64,000 bases of DNA from Natronospirillum operosum (GTDB lineage: Bacteria; Pseudomonadota; Gammaproteobacteria; Pseudomonadales; Natronospirillaceae). The stretch's first letter is position 1. Every line of letters begins with the position of its first letter. The notes under the pieces are model-generated. The model saw only the letters and a list, made by a program, of their open reading frames with translations. It was not told the DNA's origin and made no database searches. The stretch spans positions 411,606 through 475,605 of the forward strand of contig NZ_SRMF01000002.1 of NCBI RefSeq assembly GCF_004768465.1. The letters run 5' to 3'. Shown one piece after another: positions 20,117 through 31,938 of this stretch. The position numbers and the translations under genes are program-made.

Positions 20117-22932
20117 TCAACCAGATAGAGGATGGACTGGTACGGAATGCCGGCGTGTTCACTGAGCCCTATTTCACAGGTCCGGCTGTTGGAGAAACCG
20201 CGCTGACAAGCGTCCACCTCCGTAGCCAGGTCCTGCAATGCCGAGGCATTCAATTCCGGCACTTGAAAGCCCTTGTCGCCGGCAAAGCCGCAACAGGTTA
20301 CTGAAGCCGGCAGCACCACCTCGCGCGCGCAGGCGCGAGCCAGGCCAATCAGCGCCTCACCCTGACCCATGCGGGTAGTCGAACAGGTCACATGCAGCGC
20401 TATGGTCTCTTCTGCCGGCGTGATGGCCAGTCGAGGCAACAGCTGCTGATGGATGAAAGTGGCCGGTTCGACAATCTGCAGGCCGCTGTCCTGCGCTTCC
20501 AGCAGCGTCTGCACGCAGGGGCTGGTGTCACAGAGAATCGGCAGGCGGCCGTTTTCCGAAGCCAGACGCAGGGCATCGAGCGCCTCTTCGCGTTTGCTGT
20601 GCGCCACCTCGAACAACCCCCTGGACTTGAACGGCATGCCACAGCACAGGCTGTCTGTCGTCGGCGGCACAATCACGTCATACCCGGCCTTGTGCAGAAT
20701 CGACAGCACCACATCGTGCACCGACCGGGTATCGGGGTCGCCTGGTGCCGGGCCAACGACACGGGTCACACAGGCGGGCAGGTAAACCACGGCCGGGCGC
20801 CCGCTGCGAACCGTGGTCTGTGTGCGGGCCAGCAAGCGCTGCCCGGAGGTGCCGGCGCGTCCCATGCTGGGCGACCAGCGCCCCACAGCACCACCACTTA
20901 TCCTGTTGACCACGGCGGCCCCGGCAGCCACCACGCCATTGCCCAGCAGAGCGCGGCCAAAACCGGCCATGCGCAGACCAACCCGCATGCCTCGGGTGAC
21001 ACCGGCAAAATGCAGACTGATCTGTTGCGCCACTGCTTTCTTGCCCTGATTCTGCTCGCTGCGAATCGCCCGCACCAGATCGCCGGTGTTGATGTCCACC
21101 GGGCAGCGCAGTTCACACAGTCCGTCGGCGGCACAGGTATCCAGACCCTGATACTGATAGTCCTCGCGCAAGCGCTGCAGGCGTGCCGGGTCTTCGCCCG
21201 TGCTGTCGAGGCGACTCATTTCGCGCCACAGGACGATGCGCTGGCGCGGCGTCAGGCTGAGGCGGCGTGACGGGCAGACCGCCTCACAGAAACCGCACTC
21301 GATGCATTTGTCGATCAGCTCATGGGCGGCCGGAATCGGCTTCAGATTCTCCACATGCAGGCGCGTATTGTCGGACAGGATGACATCGGGGTTGAGCAGA
21401 TTGAGCGGGTCAAACAGCTTCTTCAGCGTTTTCATCAACGCATAGGCGTCACTGCCCCATTCCATTTCCACAAAGGGCGCCATATTGCGTCCGGTGCCAT
21501 GTTCGGCCTTCAGCGAGCCGCCGTAGCGCACGGCCACCAGTTCCGCCACTTCCCGCATCAGGCCATCGTAGCGCTCAACGTCCGCATCGGTTTCGAAGCT
21601 CTGCGGAAACACAAAGTGCAGGTTGCCTTCCAGCGCATGGCCGAGCACGGTGGCATCGTGGTAGCCGTATTTCTGCAGCAGCGCCTGCACCCCCAGCACA
21701 CCGTCGGCCAGGTGCTCCATCGGGAAGGCCACATCCTCGATCAGACAGGTGGTACCGATCACCCGCTGGGCACCGATGGCAGGGAAAATGCCCTTGCGGA
21801 TCTGCCAGTACAGTTCATAGGTGACCGGGTCCTGCGTGAACTGCACCGGCGCCAGCAATCTGGCGCCGTCCACCGCTGCTGTAACCACCTCGACGCCGGC
21901 AGCCACTTCGGCATCATCCTGCCCCCGTACATCTATCAACAGCGCACAGGCCTCGTCCGGCAGGTGCTGCAGCTCTGCCGGCATACCCGGACGATCGGCC
22001 ACCGAGCGCAGGGAGTTGCGATCCAGAAGCTCAACGGCGGCCACCGGTGCGGTCTGCTCCTTGAGCGCACGCGTGGCCTCACAGGCGGCCCGAATGTCCT
22101 CGAAATAGACCAGTGCAGCTGCTTTATGGGCATGATCGGGCACGGTGTTGTAGGTAATCTCGCTGATAAAGGCGAGTGTGCCTTCCGAGCCGATCAGCAG
22201 ATGCTTCAGGATATCCACCGGCTCGGCGTAGTCGACCAGCGCATTGAGGCTGTAACCAGTGGTGTTCTTGAGCCGGTACTTGTGTCGGATCTTGTCGGCC
22301 AGTGGCTGATTGCAGCGCACCTGGGTGCCCAGGTCTGCCAACCGTGCCAGCAGCTTGGCATGGGTACGGGCAAAGCGGGCGCGCGAGGCCGGGTCGGCCG
22401 TATCCAGCACGGTGCCATCAGCCATGATCACACGCATGTGGCGCACGGTCTGATAGCTGTTCTGGGCCGTACCGCAGCACATGCCCGAGGCGTTGTTGGC
22501 GGCAATACCGCCAATCATGCAGCTGTTGATGGAAGCCGGGTCGGGGCCGATCTTGCGCCCGTACGGCATCAGCCAGGCATTGGCCTGCGCCCCTATCACA
22601 CCCGGCCCCAGCCGGATGGCCTGACCGTCTTGCAGTATCTCGTGATGGTTCCAGCCATTGCCGAGCAGGATCAGCACCGAGTCGGTCACCGCCTGTCCGG
22701 ACAGAGAAGTGCCGGCGGCGCGGAAGGTCACCGGAGTACCCCAGTCGCGGCAGGCCTGCAACACCTGACTGACCTCCTCTTCGGACTCGACACGCACGAC
22801 CAGTTGCGGAATCAGGCGATAGAAGCTGGCATCCGTGCCGTAGGCCAGGGTGCGCAGCGGATCATGAATCAGGCGTTCCTCCGGCAGGAAGGACTTCAAT
22901 GTCTTGAGCAGTTGCTGATGTGGCCTGTTCAT
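20017..22932 (-). CDS. dld-II: FAD/FeS D-lactate dehydrogenase (Dld-II type)
   Basis: This 971-residue protein joins three parts. An FAD-binding PCMH oxidase domain covers residues 1-500, with [19 protein letters not shown] and [15 protein letters not shown] di-[4Fe-4S] module (about 525-640) has [17 protein letters not shown] and [17 protein letters not shown]-type domains (700-940) carry [10 protein letters not shown] and [10 protein letters not shown]. This is the architecture of the Shewanella D-lactate dehydrogenase found beside lldEFG. It would oxidise D-lactate to pyruvate and pass electrons to the quinone pool. Its ATG overlaps the stop of the upstream chemoreceptor gene (ATGA). About 33 residues past [11 protein letters not shown] look like a non-conserved tail that overlaps the convergent gene. 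Confidence 0.87.
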
Positions 22933-24512
22933 GATGCGGTCTCGGTCTCGCGGTTGTCTTCAAGAATCAGTTCCGGGTCGAAGCCCATGACGAGTGCGCC
23001 CCAGTGCTCACCATTGATGTAAAGGGGCAGCGATATGTCATTGAGTATCTCTCCGGTATCCCGGATATAGGTCTGCAACAGGAACGGCCGGGTGTTGCGC
23101 GCGCGCCGCTGCTCGGTTTCATTGCTGAAATACTGCCTCTGGTCACGGCTGTAAAGCAGATCCTGCGCCGGATCACCTGTCGGCGGTCGAGACACTTCGG
23201 CGTGATGGACCGCCAGGTAACCATTGATATCCACAATCAGACTGTAGGCCGTGCCCGGAAAAGCCCGTTTGCTGTCATCCACTGCCTGCTGGAAAGCGGA
23301 CTTGAACGCCTCCACATAGCGGGTCAGGAACTGTTGCGGGTCAGTGTCCGGCACCGGCACATAGTCGCGATCGAAAACCGGCACCCCCTCGGTCTGCAGC
23401 TGCGCAAGCTGTTGTTCAAACCAGGCCTGGAGCTGCCGCCGCTGGTCCAGAACCTCCTCGAGTCGGCCGCTGCCGGTTCGGTAGTCTGCCAGCAGGCCCA
23501 GGGTCTCTTCGGTCGCCTCGCGCAGGCTGGCAGAATGGTTGTCCGACTGCCTGATCTCCGCCGCCAGGTCACGACCCAGTGTCTGAATATCTCCGCTGCG
23601 TCGGTGTATCTCCCTGTTGGTCACACTGATCTGCTCAATGGAGGATCCGATGGCCAGCAGATCATCATGCGTTGTTTCCAGGCCCTGCACCATGTGATCG
23701 AACTGTTCGGTTGCGCCCTGAACCAGACGCTGGGTTTCGGCATTGTGGTCCAGCAGTTCAGCGGTACCCTGCTCGGTCTGCTGTACCTGTTGTGACATGG
23801 CATCAATAATGCCGGCAATATCATCGGTCGCACTGGCCACCTTCTCGGACAGGTCACGCACCTCTTCAGCCACCACAGCAAAGCCGCGCCCGTGCTCCCC
23901 GGCCCGGGCTGCCTCGATCGCAGCATTCAGGGCCAGCAGGTTGGTGCGACTGGAAAAGCCCTGCACCAGTTCCAGGATGTCCCGAATACGGGTGGAGCTG
24001 TCGTTGAGGCCGGTGACCGTCCCCTTGAAGCCGTCAATCAGATCCGTTGTGGTGCCAATCCGCTCGGCCACCTGATTCAGGGATCGGTTGCTGTCGCGCA
24101 CGGTGTCCATATTGCGGGAGTTCAACTCCGAGATGGTCGCCGTGCGCTCGGTGATATCCTCCAGCGCCGTTGCCGTCTCACTGCTGCTGGTGACGATCAG
24201 TTCGGAAAACTCTTCCTGCCGGTCCGCACTGGCATGCGCCTGTTGGGTGACCTTGCGCAGGCGAGTCGATTCGACAGCGACCCTGACACTGTGCGCACGC
24301 AGGTAACCCAGGGTGCCGCGCAGGCGATCCAGCAGCCTGCGGTGCCGTTGCCGCAGTGCACTCGCCGGCAACCAATCGACCGCAGTGTCGGCGGACAGGT
24401 CTGTCAGGTCCGGCTGGGCCTGGCTGGCGGCAGATCTGAACCGATTCCACAGTCGGCTCAGGCCCGCCTCTGTATATGCGGCGGCTTTACGCCGCATCGC
24501 TGAATCACTCAT
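22929..24512 (-). CDS. Soluble methyl-accepting chemotaxis protein with C-terminal sensor domain
   Basis: This 527-residue receptor has no transmembrane segment. The signalling coiled coil covers about residues 80-355, with the hairpin tip [20 protein letters not shown] then [16 protein letters not shown]-terminal domain of about 150 residues contains [34 protein letters not shown] and [16 protein letters not shown], a Cache/PAS-like module seen at the end of some cytoplasmic receptors. The ATG at 24512 has GGGGGAGG upstream. It lies 35 bases after lldG and its stop overlaps the dld start, so it is made with the lactate enzymes and probably steers taxis by lactate or by the redox state that lactate use creates. 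Confidence 0.88.
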
Positions 24513-24547: not shown

Positions 24548-25213
24548 TTATTGGCGTACCAGTACGAGAAGTTCTGCCGGCCCATGCACCCCATAAGCCA
24601 GTGTCTGTTCGATATCCGCTGTTTTCGACGGCCCGGAAATCAGCAATGCATTGGCCGGCATGCCTGCTGCCCAGTCCTGCTCGCGCAGCAGTTCCAGCCA
24701 GTTGCTGTAAATACGATCGGCATCCAGCACCGCGATATGGATGGGCGGCACCAGGCTCATCAACCGGGGCTGGTCGGCATCCGGCCACAGGACCAGGCTG
24801 CCGGTTTCGGCAATGCCACCCAGAGTCGAGGTCAGGGCCGCATCCACTTCACTGAACAGTTCAGGCTTCCAGGCCTCGATGGGTCGATCATAGGCGCGCA
24901 GTTCGGGCCCCTTGTTGCCGGTCGCCGCAGTCCAACCGGCGCGCAGGGTCTGCCCCACCTCATGCTGACGCGGCGCCAGCAGCGTGCTGATTTCGCGCTG
25001 CTGCAGCCACCCGACCAGAGGCGTCAGCCAGTCTTCGCGCGGCACTCGCATGACCTCGCCATGCACGGATTCGATTTGCTGCCGGAACAGGTCTAGACGC
25101 TCCCCGGCGGACCACTGACGCCGGGTCAGTACGGAAAAATCGGGCTGTTCGGACGCGGGCACGGCTGCCTTGCGCTGGCGCAAGCGGCCCAGTATCTGTT
25201 CGCGGGCACTCAT
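24548..25213 (-). CDS. lldG: Lactate utilization protein LldG/LutC
   Basis: This 221-residue LUD-domain protein is the third subunit of the LldEFG (LutABC) L-lactate dehydrogenase complex. The family core is [20 protein letters not shown] followed by [20 protein letters not shown]. Its start ATG overlaps the end of lldF by 4 bases (ATGA), which indicates translational coupling. The role of the LUD domain in electron transfer is known mainly from genetics. Confidence 0.9.
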
Positions 25214-26628
25214 GAGCTACCACCATCGCGCCGCGCCATGCGGGCATGCAGGCTGTCACTGGCCAGCACCGGAGCCGTGCGATGCCGAGTCCAGGCGCCA
25301 AGGCGCCGCGGCTGCAGAAAGCGCAGCCGTTGCGCCAGAGCAAGGCCAAAGCGATACAGCGCCGGTCGGGCGTGCCCCCAGGCCCAGAGCCGCCACACCA
25401 GGGCTTCCAGGCGGCGGCGCTTGACGCCATGGCCGCGCACGACGGAGGGGTTCAGTTTGTCACCGTCCACCGCCTCGCGGCGCAGGCGCACCAGCAACTG
25501 CGGGATGGGGATCTTCACCGGACAGACTTCGCCACAGGCACCGCAGAGCGAGGACGCCGAAGGCAGGTCCTGTGTCTGTGCCAACCCCTGCAGGTGGGGC
25601 ATCAGTATCTTGCCGATAGGCCCGGGATAGGTGGTGCCATAGGCGTGACCGCCCACCCGGGTGTAGACCGGACAATGATTCATGCAGGCCCCGCAGCGTA
25701 TGCAGCGCAGCGTTTCCAGCAATTCATCGTCTTGCCAGATCTCCGAGCGGCCATTGTCGACCAGCACCAGATGCACTTCGCGCGGGCCATCGAGATGACC
25801 CTCCGGCCGCGGGCCGGAGATCATGTTGAAATAGGTGGTGATATGCTGCCCGGTAGCCGAGCGAGTGAGCAGTGCCAGCAGCGGTGCGACATCTTCCAGG
25901 CCACCCACCACCTTCTCAATGCCGGTCACGGCGATATGCACCGGAGGCACAGTGGTGGTCAGGCGGCCATTGCCTTCATTCTCTACCAGACACAGGGTGC
26001 CGGTCGCGGCGACGGCAAAATTGACGCCGGAAATGCCGACATCCGCCTGCATGAATTTTGTCCGCAGTTGCTGGCGGGCAGCGCTGGTCAGGTAGGGCAC
26101 ATCCCGGCGCGGCTCGGTGCCGGTTTTCGCATGCATCAGGTCCGAGATTTCGCCGGTGTTCTTGTGGATCGCCGGCATGATGATATGGGATGGCGTCTCC
26201 TCGGCAAGCTGCACAATGTACTCGCCCAGGTCCGATTCCAGCGCCTCGATGCCTGCCCCGGCGAGATGATGGTTGAGCTCCATCTCTTCCGACACCATCG
26301 ACTTGCCCTTGATCACATGTCGCGCCTGGTGCTGCTGACACAGCTCCGTGATCACCTTGCAGGCCTCTTCGCCATCGCGCGCCCAGTGCACCCGAATGCC
26401 ATTACGCTCGCAGTTGGCTTCCAGCTGTTCCAGCAGGTCCGGCAACTGGCTCAGCGCGCGCTGACGCACTGCGGCCCCCAGAGTGCGCAGTTCTTCCAGT
26501 TCCCAGCCCTCGAACGCGGCCGTGCGCTTGCCCATGAGCCCATCCATGGCGTTGCGGAAATTGGCCCGAATCTGTGGATCGGCCAGGGACGCCCGGGCTC
26601 TGGTGTGAAAGGTGGGCTCAGCCGTCAC
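25210..26628 (-). CDS. lldF: Lactate utilization iron-sulfur protein LldF/LutB
   Basis: This 472-residue protein has an LUD domain (residues 60-290) containing KGKSMVSEEMELNHHL and GVNFAVAATGTLCLVENEGN. A ferredoxin-like part follows, with CIRCGACMNHCPVYTRVGG and CGACGEVCPVKIPI for two 4Fe-4S clusters. It forms the electron-transfer core of the L-lactate dehydrogenase complex. The start is taken as GTG at 26628. It overlaps the TGA of lldE (GTGA), has GGAGG seven bases upstream and gives the usual family length. A longer reading from 26664 would begin inside lldE. Confidence 0.92.
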   Translation of the reverse strand: MTAEPTFHTRARASLADPQIRANFRNAMDGLMGKRTAAFEGWELEELRTLGAAVRQRALSQLPDLLEQLEANCERNGIRVHWARDGEEACKVITELCQQHQARHVIKGKSMVSEEMELNHHLAGAGIEALESDLGEYIVQLAEETPSHIIMPAIHKNTGEISDLMHAKTGTEPRRDVPYLTSAARQQLRTKFMQADVGISGVNFAVAATGTLCLVENEGNGRLTTTVPPVHIAVTGIEKVVGGLEDVAPLLALLTRSATGQHITTYFNMISGPRPEGHLDGPREVHLVLVDNGRSEIWQDDELLETLRCIRCGACMNHCPVYTRVGGHAYGTTYPGPIGKILMPHLQGLAQTQDLPSASSLCGACGEVCPVKIPIPQLLVRLRREAVDGDKLNPSVVRGHGVKRRRLEALVWRLWAWGHARPALYRFGLALAQRLRFLQPRRLGAWTRHRTAPVLASDSLHARMARRDGGSS

Positions 26629-27395
26629 CTGGAGTCCTCCGCTGCAGGATGAGTGCGCCGCCACAGAAAGCTGGCGATATGCTCACCCGACAAGGGCTGC
26701 TGTTCCTTTCTGGCATGGCCGTCGATATTCATCAGGCAGCCACAGTCGGTGGTGGCAAACGCCATTGCACCGGTAGCACTGAGGGCCTGCACCTTGTCAC
26801 TGACCATGGCCGCAGAGACCTGCTCATGACGTACCGCAAAGGTGCCGCCGAAACCACAGCACTCGGTGGCCCGTTCCGGCTCGACCAGTTCCACATTGTC
26901 CAGTTGCTGCAGCAAGGCCGGGCCGGCATCGGCCACCCGCATTTCGCGCCGGGCCGAGCAGGAGGTGTGCAGCGTTACCCGCATGGGCTCGCCCAGGTCC
27001 TGCAACCTTATCTGGCAGACATGCAGCAGAAAATCGGTCAGTTCCCAGATGCGTTCGGCTACCGCCTGTGCCTGCTCAGCTCTGGCGGTACCCGCGAACA
27101 GCTGCGGATAATGCTCGCGCATCATGCCGCCGCAGGAACCGGAGGGCACCACTATGGGCCAGTCACCGGGGAACAGGTCAAGCTGGGCCTCGGCTACCTG
27201 CCGCGACTGATCATGATAACCGGAGGTATAGGCAGGCTGTCCGCAACAGGTCTGGCCCTGCGGATAGATGACCTCGATGCCTTCGCGCTCCAGCAACCGG
27301 ATGCCGGCCATGCCGGCGTCCGGATAGAACATGTCAATCAGGCAGGTGCCGAAGAAGTAGACCTTCTCCGGTTTGGCCGGATACAGCTTTGCCAT
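26625..27395 (-). CDS. lldE: Lactate utilization protein LldE/LutA
   Basis: This 256-residue cysteine-rich protein has two CCG domains: TCCGQPAYTSGYHDQSRQVA and CCGFGGTFAVRHEQVS, each ligating an FeS centre as in heterodisulfide reductase and GlpC. KVYFFGTCLIDMFYPDAG is the usual start of the family. It works with LldF and LldG to oxidise L-lactate. The ATG at 27395 follows TAGGAGGAGTG. It is 8 bases downstream of dctM, so the transporter and enzyme genes form one operon. Confidence 0.92.
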   Translation of the reverse strand: MAKLYPAKPEKVYFFGTCLIDMFYPDAGMAGIRLLEREGIEVIYPQGQTCCGQPAYTSGYHDQSRQVAEAQLDLFPGDWPIVVPSGSCGGMMREHYPQLFAGTARAEQAQAVAERIWELTDFLLHVCQIRLQDLGEPMRVTLHTSCSARREMRVADAGPALLQQLDNVELVEPERATECCGFGGTFAVRHEQVSAAMVSDKVQALSATGAMAFATTDCGCLMNIDGHARKEQQPLSGEHIASFLWRRTHPAAEDSR

Positions 27396-27403
27396 CACTC
27401 CTC

Positions 27404-28774
27404 CTATCGGCGGCCGAATACTTCAGCTGGCAGCCAAGTGGCCAGCGGTGCGTACCAGAAAATCAGCAGCAGAGCGATCAACTGCAGCACTATGTAGGGC
27501 GCCACACCCTTGTAGATATCCGTCGTCACGATCCCGGGCGGACAGACGCCCTTGATGTAGAAGAGCGCAAAGCCGACGGGTGGCGTCAGGAACGACGTCT
27601 GCAGACAAACGGCGAACAGGATAGCGAACCACACCGGGTCCACGCCCAGGCTGAGCACGACCGGCGCCACCAGTGGCAGCACGATCAGTGTGATCTCTAC
27701 CCAGTCCAGGAAGAAGCCGATCAGGAAGGTCACCAGCAAGATCACCAGCACGGTGCCGGTCACACCGAACGGCAGACCGAGAATGGCATTACGGATCACG
27801 TCATCACCGCCATGACTGCGCAGTACAGCAGCATAGATGGTGGCGCCAATGAAAATGCCGAAAATGAAGGCCGTCGTGCGACTGGTCTGGTACAGCGCCT
27901 GCTTGAAATTGGTCAGGTTGAGACGCCCATAAAGAAGTGCCAGCAGGGTAGCACCCAGCGCCCCGATACCCGAGGCCTCGGTGGTGGTGGCCACGCCGGT
28001 GAAGATCGAGCCCAGCACCAGCACGATCAGCGCCAGTGGCGGCACCACCGAAATCAGCACATCCAGGAATGCCCGCAGATCGACCGGTTCACGGTTGGCT
28101 GGCGCCGGTGCAAACTCCGGCTTCATATATGACCGGATCAGAATATAAAGAATATACATGCCAGCCAGCATCAGTCCCGGAATCACCGCGCCCATGAACA
28201 GGCGACCTACCGATGCTGCCGGCGTGCCCATGCGATCCGCCATCAGGACCAGCATGATGCTGGGCGGTACCAGGATGCCCAGGGTGCCCACCGAGCAGGC
28301 CGTACCGACCGCCAGCGTCTTGTCATACTTGGCTTTCAGCATGGGGCCGATCGAGAGCATGCCCAGCAACACCACCGAGGCACCGATGATGCCGGTAGAG
28401 GCCGCCAGCAGCACACCGACAATGACCACAGTCACCGCATAGCCGCCGCGCAGACCGCCGAACAATCGAACCAGGCTGTCCATCAGTTTTTCGGCAATAC
28501 CGGACTTGTCCAGCATGATGCCCATGAAGATGAACATGGGCAGCGCCACCATCAGCTCGTTGGCCACAACGCTGTAGATGCGCCGATCCAGTACGCCCAT
28601 GGAGCCGCGCCAGTTGAACCAGATATCGGCATTGAAGGATTCCACCATGACATGACCAATCACGGCGAACAGCAAGCCGATGCCCGCCAGCGACCAGGCT
28701 ACCGGAAAACCGGCCAGCAACAGCATCATGAAGGAGCCGAACATCAACAGGACCATCAGGGTTTCAATGGACAT
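27404..28774 (-). CDS. dctM: TRAP transporter large membrane subunit DctM
   Basis: This 456-residue protein has about a dozen hydrophobic segments and DctM motifs such as PMFIFMGIMLDKSGIAEKLM, GASVVLLGMLSIGPML and PPSIMLVLMADRMG. It is the sodium-coupled elevator subunit of a TRAP carboxylate importer. The ATG follows GGGAGGAG. Its place directly upstream of lldEFG points to lactate or a close 2-hydroxy/2-oxo acid as substrate. Confidence 0.93.
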   Translation of the reverse strand: MSIETLMVLLMFGSFMMLLLAGFPVAWSLAGIGLLFAVIGHVMVESFNADIWFNWRGSMGVLDRRIYSVVANELMVALPMFIFMGIMLDKSGIAEKLMDSLVRLFGGLRGGYAVTVVIVGVLLAASTGIIGASVVLLGMLSIGPMLKAKYDKTLAVGTACSVGTLGILVPPSIMLVLMADRMGTPAASVGRLFMGAVIPGLMLAGMYILYILIRSYMKPEFAPAPANREPVDLRAFLDVLISVVPPLALIVLVLGSIFTGVATTTEASGIGALGATLLALLYGRLNLTNFKQALYQTSRTTAFIFGIFIGATIYAAVLRSHGGDDVIRNAILGLPFGVTGTVLVILLVTFLIGFFLDWVEITLIVLPLVAPVVLSLGVDPVWFAILFAVCLQTSFLTPPVGFALFYIKGVCPPGIVTTDIYKGVAPYIVLQLIALLLIFWYAPLATWLPAEVFGRR

Positions 28775-28776
28775 GA

Positions 28777-29445
28777 TCAGGCTCCTCCCGACGATTGTTC
28801 AGCATTGTCAGAAACCGGCCCCCGACCGTGCGGCCAGAAAGGCCGCGGGAAACCGAACAGGAACGAAATACAGCGCAGTGCGCGCGAGGCAAAGGCCAGC
28901 ATCAGAAGAGTAAAGCCGAGCGGCATGGCGCCCTTGATGATGAAGCGGTTGGGCAGCCCGCTGGGCGCCTGCGAACGCTCACCGGACACATAGGAGCGCA
29001 TGGCATAGGAGTAGGTTTCTTCCAGTACAATCCAGAATACCGGCATGGCCAGCAGGACCAGAGCAAGCAGTTCAATCCAGGCCCGCGTTTTCAGGCTGAA
29101 GCGCTCGCGCAGAAAATCAACCCGAACATGATCATCGGTGACCACGGCATAGCTGAGCGAGAGCAGCATGGCAGCACCAAAGAAGTGCCAGGAGAGCTCT
29201 TCCAGAGCGATGGAACCTCGACCGAACATGAAACGGTCCACCACGTTGATGGTGATCACCGCTATGGTGGCCACCCACAGCCAGGCAGCCAGTTGTCCGA
29301 TAAAGCGGATCACGGCATCGACCGGGCGGGAAATGATATTGGTAGGCAGATCCTGCCGGGCTTCCACAGCCCCGGGAACAATTGCCTGAACCATTTCTTC
29401 AGGCGTCCGTTCTTCCGGTCTCCTGTTATGATTCTGTTCCGACAT
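28777..29445 (-). CDS. dctQ: TRAP transporter small membrane subunit DctQ
   Basis: This 222-residue protein has four hydrophobic segments beginning near residue 50 (FIGQLAAWLWVATIAVITIN) and the DctQ stretch DHVRVDFLRERFSLKTRAWIEL. It pairs with DctM to form the membrane part of the TRAP importer. An unusually long hydrophilic N-terminus (about 45 residues, MSEQNHNRRPEERTPEEMVQ...) precedes the first helix. Its stop is 2 bases from the dctM start. Confidence 0.9.
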   Translation of the reverse strand: MSEQNHNRRPEERTPEEMVQAIVPGAVEARQDLPTNIISRPVDAVIRFIGQLAAWLWVATIAVITINVVDRFMFGRGSIALEELSWHFFGAAMLLSLSYAVVTDDHVRVDFLRERFSLKTRAWIELLALVLLAMPVFWIVLEETYSYAMRSYVSGERSQAPSGLPNRFIIKGAMPLGFTLLMLAFASRALRCISFLFGFPRPFWPHGRGPVSDNAEQSSGGA

Positions 29446-29576: not shown

Positions 29577-30680
29577 TTATTCGGCGACTCCGCCGTAGTA
29601 GGACCGCGGCAGATGGCCCTTGTCGTGCCATACACCATGCACCTGCATCCATTCACGCTGGCTTTCCAGAACCCGGGCAAACATCTCGTCACCCGCGGCA
29701 ATCTCGTCCAGTGTTGTATTGGTCACTTCTTCCAGCTCTGCCAGGATCTCTGGCGAGAGCACCTGCAGGTTCACACCGTCAGCCTCGAAGTCATGCATGG
29801 CCTGCGGGTTCTCCCACTCGGACTCGGAGAAGCCGAACAGAGTAGCAGAACGGCAGCCCACCTCGATCTGCGCGCGGGTCAGGTCAGACAGGTCTTCCCA
29901 GGCTTCCGTGTTGATCAGCAGGTGAGAGGTTGTGTAAGTCTGGTGCCAGCCGGGCAAAATGTAGTTCTGTACGATGTCGGCGACGCCCAGAATACGGTCA
30001 ACCGCAGGCGCGGAGAACTCCATAGCATCGATCACGCCACGGTCCATGGCCTGGTAAAGTTCACCACCTGGCAGCATGGTCACGGAAGCGCCCAGCTTCT
30101 CCATGACCTGCCCGCCGATACCGGCAAAGCGGATACGCAGGCCATCGATCTGATCAAGCGAATCGAGCGGTTCGGCAAACCAGCCGGCAGCTTCCGGGCC
30201 GATCACACCACACAGCAATGCAGTCACACCATAGGGCTCATAGACTTCCTGCAACAACTCATCGCCACCACCGAAGTAGTGCCACGCCATGAATGCCGGT
30301 GGCTCCATACCAAACGGAGGGCCTGCAAGCAGCGGCAGCACGGGAATACGGCCCTGATCATAACCCAGCCAGGTGAAACCGGCATTGAACTGACCTTCAG
30401 ATACCGCATCGAGAATCTCGAAGGGCGGAATCAGCTCATCGGGCTCATAGTAGCGCATGTCGATGTTGCCACCGGAAATGGTGCGCACGGTTTCGGTCAT
30501 GTGCACGATGGGGGTACTCAGACCAACCCAGTGCGACGGGAAAGCAATGGGCACCTGCCAGCGCACACGCTCCTGAGCGGTGGCGGTGGTAGACAGGGCA
30601 AGCCCGGTGACAAGAGCGGCGGTGGTAACGGTAGCCGTTACTGCCTTGATGGACTGACGCAGCGGATTGCGGTTGAACAT
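29577..30680 (-). CDS. dctP: TRAP transporter substrate-binding protein DctP
   Basis: This 367-residue periplasmic binding protein has a signal peptide (about 1-36, ending STTATAQ). The family core is LRIRFAGIGGQVMEKLGASV, TMLPGGELYQAMDRGVIDAM then EFSAPAVD, typical of the TakP/lactate-type TRAP proteins that bind 2-oxo or 2-hydroxy carboxylates as a calcium or sodium complex. The conserved Arg within RIRF contacts the carboxylate in relatives. AGGAGG precedes the ATG. It is the first gene of the operon facing lldR. Confidence 0.92.
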   Translation of the reverse strand: MFNRNPLRQSIKAVTATVTTAALVTGLALSTTATAQERVRWQVPIAFPSHWVGLSTPIVHMTETVRTISGGNIDMRYYEPDELIPPFEILDAVSEGQFNAGFTWLGYDQGRIPVLPLLAGPPFGMEPPAFMAWHYFGGGDELLQEVYEPYGVTALLCGVIGPEAAGWFAEPLDSLDQIDGLRIRFAGIGGQVMEKLGASVTMLPGGELYQAMDRGVIDAMEFSAPAVDRILGVADIVQNYILPGWHQTYTTSHLLINTEAWEDLSDLTRAQIEVGCRSATLFGFSESEWENPQAMHDFEADGVNLQVLSPEILAELEEVTNTTLDEIAAGDEMFARVLESQREWMQVHGVWHDKGHLPRSYYGGVAE

Positions 30681-30853: not shown

Positions 30854-30870
30854 AATTGGTAAGACCATTT
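30854..30870. promoter_or_regulatory. LldR/PdhR-type operator O1
   Basis: AATTGGTAAGACCATTT fits the FadR-family LldR/PdhR consensus AATTGGT-N3-ACCAATT at 15 of 17 positions. It lies 174 bases upstream of dctP. The 11-base core TGGT-AAG-ACCA is repeated in inverse orientation at 31036-31046. No other feature was identified in the rest of the 496-base divergent gap apart from AT-rich promoter-like sequence. Confidence 0.75.
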
Positions 30871-31032: not shown

Positions 31033-31049
31033 TTCTGGTCTTACCAATT
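31033..31049. promoter_or_regulatory. LldR/PdhR-type operator O2
   Basis: TTCTGGTCTTACCAATT, or its complement AATTGGTAAGACCAGAA, keeps the TGGT-N3-ACCA core identical to O1 and lies 128 bases upstream of lldR. The centres of the two sites are 179 bases apart. E. coli LldR also uses two operators around its promoter, so looping or dual control by the divergent regulator is likely here. Confidence 0.72.
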
Positions 31050-31176: not shown

Positions 31177-31938
31177 ATGACCTACTCACCAGTGCGTCCG
31201 CAGCGTGTCGCAGACGTGGTCATGGGCCAGATCGAATCCATGATCCTGGAAGGCAGTCTGAAGCCGGGGCAAAAGCTGCCTACGGAAAGGGAACTCGCCA
31301 AACAGTTCGGAGTATCACGCCCGTCGCTGCGTGAAGCCATTCAGAAGCTGGCCGCGCGGGGCCTGCTGGTCAGCCGCCAGGGCGGTGGGACCTATGTGAG
31401 TGTGGAGATTGGCGCTGCCTATGCCGACTCGCTGATGGAAATGTTCGGCACTCATCCTGAGTTTCACTACGACCTGCTCGAATTCCGGCACGCGCTGGAA
31501 GGTATCTCGGCCTATTATGCAGCCCTGCGCTCCACCCAGGCCGACAAGGACATTCTGCAGAAACGCTTCGATAATCTGGTGGCCACCTATGACGCCATGG
31601 ACCCGGAACTGGAAGCCGAGGCCGACGCTGCCTTCCACCTGACCATCTGCGAAGCGGCACACAATGTGGTACTGCTGCATACCATGCGCGGCCTGTTCAG
31701 CCTGTTGGAGCGCAGTATCGTGGACAACCTGTCCAGCCTGTTCGAGCGCCCCGAGTCACGCGGCAAGCTGTCCGAGCAGCACCGCGCGCTGCTGGAAGCC
31801 ATCCTGGAGGGTGACGCCGAACGCGCCCAGCAGAAATCGCATGAGCATCTGGTCTTTGTGGAAGACAGCCTGCTCGAACTCTCCAAACGCAAGACGCGGC
31901 TGCACCGGGCGTTGCGGCGGGTCCAGTCCGAGCTCTGA
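31177..31938 (+). CDS. lldR: FadR-family GntR regulator, LldR-like
   Basis: This 253-residue regulator has an N-terminal winged helix (residues 5-75, with LPTERELAKQFGVSRPSLRE) and an all-helical FCD effector domain (about 90-235, with DAAFHLTICEAAHNVVLLH). Length and style fit LldR/PdhR, which sense lactate or pyruvate. It is divergent from the TRAP-lldEFG-dld operon, and two LldR-type operators lie between them. It is therefore assigned as the lactate-responsive repressor of the locus. Confidence 0.87.
   Translation: MTYSPVRPQRVADVVMGQIESMILEGSLKPGQKLPTERELAKQFGVSRPSLREAIQKLAARGLLVSRQGGGTYVSVEIGAAYADSLMEMFGTHPEFHYDLLEFRHALEGISAYYAALRSTQADKDILQKRFDNLVATYDAMDPELEAEADAAFHLTICEAAHNVVLLHTMRGLFSLLERSIVDNLSSLFERPESRGKLSEQHRALLEAILEGDAERAQQKSHEHLVFVEDSLLELSKRKTRLHRALRRVQSEL

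Follow-up and report, generated by a model that had tools for sequence, protein, structure and literature searches.

Why should a chemoreceptor gene lie among genes for the transport and oxidation of lactate, and what might such a receptor report? In the window, that is, the whole 64-kb stretch of Natronospirillum operosum DNA that was analyzed, eight co-directional genes were identified from open reading frames and domain profiles, running on the minus strand from 30680 to 20017 in the order dctP, dctQ, dctM, lldE, lldF, lldG, chemoreceptor and dld-like:

29577..30680, minus strand: TRAP solute-binding protein DctP; nearest solved structure a ketoacid-binding protein (7ug8)
28777..29445, minus strand: TRAP small permease DctQ, from domain profiles
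27404..28774, minus strand: TRAP large permease DctM, from domain profiles
26625..27398, minus strand: lldE, with two CCG stretches
25210..26664, minus strand: lldF/LutB; TIGR00273, 476.8 bits (cut-off 444.8)
24548..25213, minus strand: lldG, LUD domain
22929..24512, minus strand: soluble methyl-accepting chemotaxis protein (MCP), 527 aa
20017..22932, minus strand: dld-like (D-lactate-dehydrogenase-like) FAD + 4Fe-4S + CCG dehydrogenase, 971 aa

With LldE, LldF and LldG adjacent, TIGR00273 above its cut-off and LUD and CCG domains present, the central genes form an LldEFG/LutABC set. The dctPQM transporter is probably of the ketoacid/lactate type, judging from the nearest structure of DctP and from another close one, SmoM (2hzk), the lactate-binding TTHA0766 (7e9y) being more distant. 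The original prediction had placed the receptor 35 bases after lldG and in a 4-base overlap with dld, and both distances were exactly reproduced by the coordinates of the open reading frames: 35 nt separate the end of lldG at 24548 from the ATG of the receptor at 24512, with GGGGGAGG upstream, and the TGA of the receptor is shared with the ATG of dld (22932) in the 4-nt overlap ATGA. The operon anatomy likewise supports the proposed context of co-transcription with lactate transport and oxidation genes. A longer reading of the receptor frame, with a GTG start at 24788, was discarded on account of its overlap with lldG; the in-frame upstream extension is not hydrophobic. The same genome has a second lldE-lldF locus (G000:C23:376355-377806, L191), with another TRAP-like permease, a 379-aa protein and no receptor.

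Upstream of the operon lies a divergent regulator gene, and the intergenic region between the two contains two candidate operators:

31177..31938, plus strand: GntR/FCD regulator of the PdhR/LldR type; PdhR 304 bits and LldR 251 bits, below the equivalog cut-offs
30855..30869, plus strand: LldR/PdhR-like candidate operator ATTGGTAAGACCATT, one mismatch
31034..31048, plus strand: second LldR/PdhR-like candidate operator TCTGGTCTTACCAAT, one mismatch, an inverted copy of the same core

When the pattern WTTGGTnnnACCAAW was searched across the 64-kb window, 30855 and 31034 were the only matches with one mismatch. Because the three matches found with up to two mismatches equal the number expected by chance, it is the position of the two sites and their mutual symmetry that carry the operator evidence, which suggests that the operon is regulated by an LldR-type protein. 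No sigma-28-like (flagellar-type) promoter was found near 24512.

The position of the receptor is conserved in the genus. The closest orthologue, from Natronospirillum (L061/L238, which were counted as one genome, since the genus's second genome, from the other collection, contains a stretch of L061), is 77-81% identical to the window receptor, and 80% in the C-terminal domain. Its operon has the genes in the same order, with 34 nt between lldG and the receptor and an identical 4-nt overlap of receptor and dld. A receptor with this C-terminal domain therefore lies inside the lld operon in both of the genomes of the genus that were examined (2/2), and the retention of order, gap and overlap in the second of them makes a chance placement unlikely. 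The survey of other genomes for the same MCP between lldG and dld, called for by the original prediction, thus recovered it, and the receptor is not absent from the lactate loci of relatives. An lldF of this type was found in nine genomes of the taxonomic family. In all four genomes of a sister genus the slot after lldG is occupied by an Aer-like receptor (PAS_3 + MCPsignal), the PAS part of which matches solved aerotaxis receptors; the simple ORF caller failed to pick up lldG in the fourth genome, where the gap is of equal size. These receptors are:

L197:6380-7945, L202:6732-8297, L203:10395-11996 and L239:10494-12059: Aer-like chemoreceptors of the sister genus, after lldG

In three further genera of the family lldEF(G) is present without a receptor, and outside the family none of 74 lldF loci (0/74) had a same-strand MCP within 2 kb, the slot counts across the family and outside it not being mutually independent. 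The occurrence of two unrelated sensors in one slot within one family argues for a function of the placement.

The receptor itself consists of two parts:

23490..24362, minus strand: helical signaling hairpin, residues ~51-341, with its turn at residue 204, from model and alignments
22971..23480, minus strand: C-terminal Cache-like sensor domain, residues ~345-514, from alignment, isolated-domain model and structure matches

The signaling domain is matched by Pfam MCPsignal (PF00015) over residues 160-306, at 113 bits versus a cut-off of 34.6. As the original prediction had it, the protein lacks a membrane helix: a hydropathy scan of the whole protein found no stretch that reached the threshold, making this a soluble chemoreceptor. 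The full-length AlphaFold2 (AF2) model (pLDDT 86) has two long helices, 51-203 and 205-341, followed by a compact domain at 350-513. Over 58-341 the hairpin is as long as that of PcaY_PP, and it aligns without gaps to several other MCPs of the same genome. Its tip reads FSSRTN (residues 186-191, 23940-23957, minus strand) in both genomes of the genus and is otherwise canonical, with SSR before TN where almost all relatives have xxQTN and the other receptors of the genome have QTN; this substitution of Q by R at position 189 might affect coupling. Most relatives carry, besides the same C-terminal domain in the cytoplasm, two N-terminal transmembrane helices with a short loop, whereas the helices are absent from the window form, the Natronospirillum orthologue, the lactate-linked Desulfamplus copy and a Dechloromonas-type clade (all called from a simple hydropathy scan, with the start sites of some relatives uncertain). 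Because most relatives keep these helices, the window form appears to have lost its anchor, and the domain is best understood as a cytoplasmic sensor behind the signaling hairpin. The genome also contains about 33 MCP genes, flagellin genes and four CheA genes, one of them in a 2155-aa open frame as in pilus systems.

In view of the fact that coiled coils dominated the Foldseek matches of the full-length model, the C-terminal domain was modeled alone. This gave a confident model (pLDDT 91.6, pTM 0.86) with a helix at 350-374 followed by a helix and strands, mostly above a pLDDT of 90. The best Foldseek matches of the isolated domain were mostly Cache/PAS and weak (E above 0.003, TM about 0.3-0.5), including the Tlp3, CitA, PctD, KinD and DcuS sensors; the viral structure library gave no useful match. 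No Pfam profile matched the domain above its cut-off, the isolated domain giving GAF_2 at E=0.0044 and dCache_1 at E=0.16, and the window protein missed all cut-offs of the Cache profiles; relatives had weak matches to sCache_3_2 (some with E down to 2.4e-5) and PocR. From these weak profile and structural matches we regard the domain as Cache-like and as a probable member of the Cache/PAS superfamily. The domain type originally predicted is thus upheld, and its bounds are shifted from 365-527 to ~345-513. In the window protein we found no profile match to a PAS domain, hence no N-terminal FAD-binding-type PAS as in Aer, and no recognized cofactor site. Twelve residues are the same in all 78 sequences compared (Y432, H436, G446, D451, R456, R484, D485, G487, P496, G501, G505 and G510), and H503-W504 and LLQTYxRDTGE are nearly invariant. 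No lactate-specific positions were found in the domain, the conserved residues being identical in lactate-linked and unlinked members. Relatives are encoded in 76/295 genomes of the order and on 158 stretches of the genome collection; the domain is widespread, has no curated model and is a target for ligand screening, with its several genomic contexts as clues.

Those contexts vary by lineage, and among them a link to lactate recurs. It is seen in Geobacter-type loci (LctP-MCP-GlcD/Dld, with divergent lldG-ldhH), in Nitrospirota (LctP-GlcD-LldE/GlcF-like-MCP) and in Desulfamplus (TRAP-lldG-ldhH-MCP), and in Marinospirillum celere the receptor follows glycolate oxidase and malate synthase. Together with the window genus, lactate/glycolate-linked members stand at five separate places of the tree and require at least five changes by parsimony, on a quick tree with several long branches that was built from loci gathered by similarity to the window domain. 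Among 40 domain-family loci from the class to which Geobacter belongs, a lactate link is confined to those of the Geobacter type; gammaproteobacterial members are mostly not linked, and most of the domain family lies beside unrelated genes. Conservation of the linkage across the whole domain family was therefore rejected: the link recurs and is not general. Other contexts include a paralogue in the window genome with the same C-terminal domain and 35% identity (G000:C12:406425-406880, L159:8405-9994), ~5 kb outside the window, which diverges from another GntR/FCD regulator. Members in Nitrincola and Neptuniibacter (L100, L106, L117 and L124; nine similar loci) lie convergent with the gene of a conserved response regulator, in which two receiver stretches were matched. 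In a Marinospirillum (L122:4460-6366) the receptor gene comes after those for uracil phosphoribosyltransferase and a permease of the uracil/xanthine type, a further context with a link to transport.

The reading that we favor, with a probability of about one half, is that synthesis of the receptor is tied to lactate use and that it senses an internal consequence of that use. The LldR/PdhR-type regulator, to judge from the operators, would repress the operon without lactate, such that the cytoplasmic receptor, produced along with the lactate transporter and dehydrogenases, would be present mainly during lactate use. The C-terminal domain, which follows the hairpin at the end that takes up input in other receptors, would respond to something that the uptake or oxidation of lactate changes inside the cell, most probably a small carboxylate (lactate, pyruvate or a close relative) and with lower probability the redox or energy state. 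A resulting change of CheA activity in the chemotaxis array would steer induced cells to places where lactate is profitable. Supporting this reading are the operon anatomy, the conservation in the genus, the operators, the lack of a sigma-28-like site, the missing anchor, the hairpin length and the flagellin genes, and further the repeated lactate/glycolate placements and the Aer-like receptor in the slot in 4/4 genomes versus 0/74 loci outside the family. The original idea of metabolism-dependent taxis is thereby strengthened in part, by two kinds of independent placement, the Aer-like receptor in the sister genus and the domain family in lactate/glycolate loci. Direct binding of lactate or pyruvate is something that we infer, since most members are unlinked and the linked ones have no signature residues. 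These same two points count against the favored reading, as do the genera of the family and the second lldEF locus without a receptor, and the altered tip.

Much the same evidence bears on whether the ligand is lactate-specific at all. Among 78 members drawn from many contexts the core residues do not vary, which is the main argument for a single ligand or signal conserved throughout the domain family, such as a central metabolite or a physical cue; the operon would then supply lactate-dependent expression, and the receptor would add general intracellular sensing. The unrelated neighbors of most members and the lack of lactate-specific residues agree with this, but at least five separate lactate/glycolate placements exceed what would be expected if the ligand were unrelated to these acids or their products, and we consider it a real possibility, if not a probable one. 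That the receptor serves energy taxis, reporting how lactate oxidation affects redox state or electron transport and not a small acid, is suggested by the Aer-like PAS receptor that fills the corresponding slot in the sister genus and by the cytoplasmic position, which suits an internal signal. However, the window protein has neither an Aer-type PAS nor a recognized cofactor site, and the fold of its domain matches mostly ligand-binding Cache domains, so that energy taxis seems quite unlikely here.

The output might also go to a chemosensory pathway other than that of the flagellar motor, such as one for surface behavior, pili or a second messenger. The CheA-type gene in the long open frame, one of four, and the altered hairpin tip would fit such an output, but given a hairpin of PcaY_PP length that is gap-free against several MCPs of the genome we think it unlikely. 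Finally, with MCP genes so numerous and the genus represented by two genomes, the gene could be a hitchhiker, with a position that is functionally meaningless. We hold this to be very improbable, since the second species retains the order and the 4-nt coupling, and the sister genus has a different receptor in the same slot while the loci outside the family have none.

Returning to the favored reading, sensing of an internal consequence of lactate use, the repeated placement of receptors by lactate/glycolate genes suggests that some bacteria may steer by their internal use of lactate. A wider proposal, which we put forward as speculative and somewhat unlikely, is that Cache-like domains of this type form an as yet undescribed family of cytoplasmic sensors for 2-hydroxy- or 2-oxo-acids, that lactate/glycolate operons repeatedly recruited internal-state chemoreceptors, with two unrelated sensor types in one taxonomic family, and that taxis would thereby report flux and not outside concentration. 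Our search of the literature available to us found no description of a chemoreceptor in lld operons, nor of this combination or its recurrence.

In reports attributed to Luu (2015; PcaY, aromatic acids) and Grimm (1999; NahY, naphthalene), the receptor gene is said to lie beside genes for the transport and degradation of the substrate. PcaY and NahY are both membrane-bound, their ligand domains lying in the periplasm. Both, from Pseudomonas putida, are referenced in PMC6321045 as chemoreceptors encoded with catabolic genes. The window receptor shares that location and has a hairpin equal in length to that of PcaY_PP, whereas it is a soluble protein whose C-terminal domain is cytoplasmic. In TlpC of Helicobacter pylori the Cache domain is periplasmic and ahead of the signaling part. 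TlpC is a lactate chemoreceptor with a double Cache domain (PMC5658362). The window receptor resembles it in having a Cache-type domain and a link to lactate, here one of genomic context, and differs in that its single Cache-like domain follows the signaling part, in the cytoplasm. The C-terminus of TlpD, another receptor of H. pylori, is a zinc-binding CZB domain. TlpD is a soluble cytosolic chemoreceptor (PMC6715182). Both it and the window receptor are cytosolic and have no membrane helix, while the latter has a Cache-like domain. To our knowledge, no intracellular Cache family is known from chemoreceptors. Cache domains are for the most part extracellular, two small families being intracellular (PMC4822843), and the window domain is, like those, inside the cell but without a profile match. 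What is known of how bacteria couple taxis to metabolism comes mostly from Aer-type receptors, and cytoplasmic sensing of a metabolic consequence, as in Aer, is the mode proposed for the window receptor, although it has neither the N-terminal PAS nor the membrane anchor of Aer. A soluble receptor made with the lactate enzymes thus offers a testable case, in which a single operon would tie together induction, internal sensing and movement.
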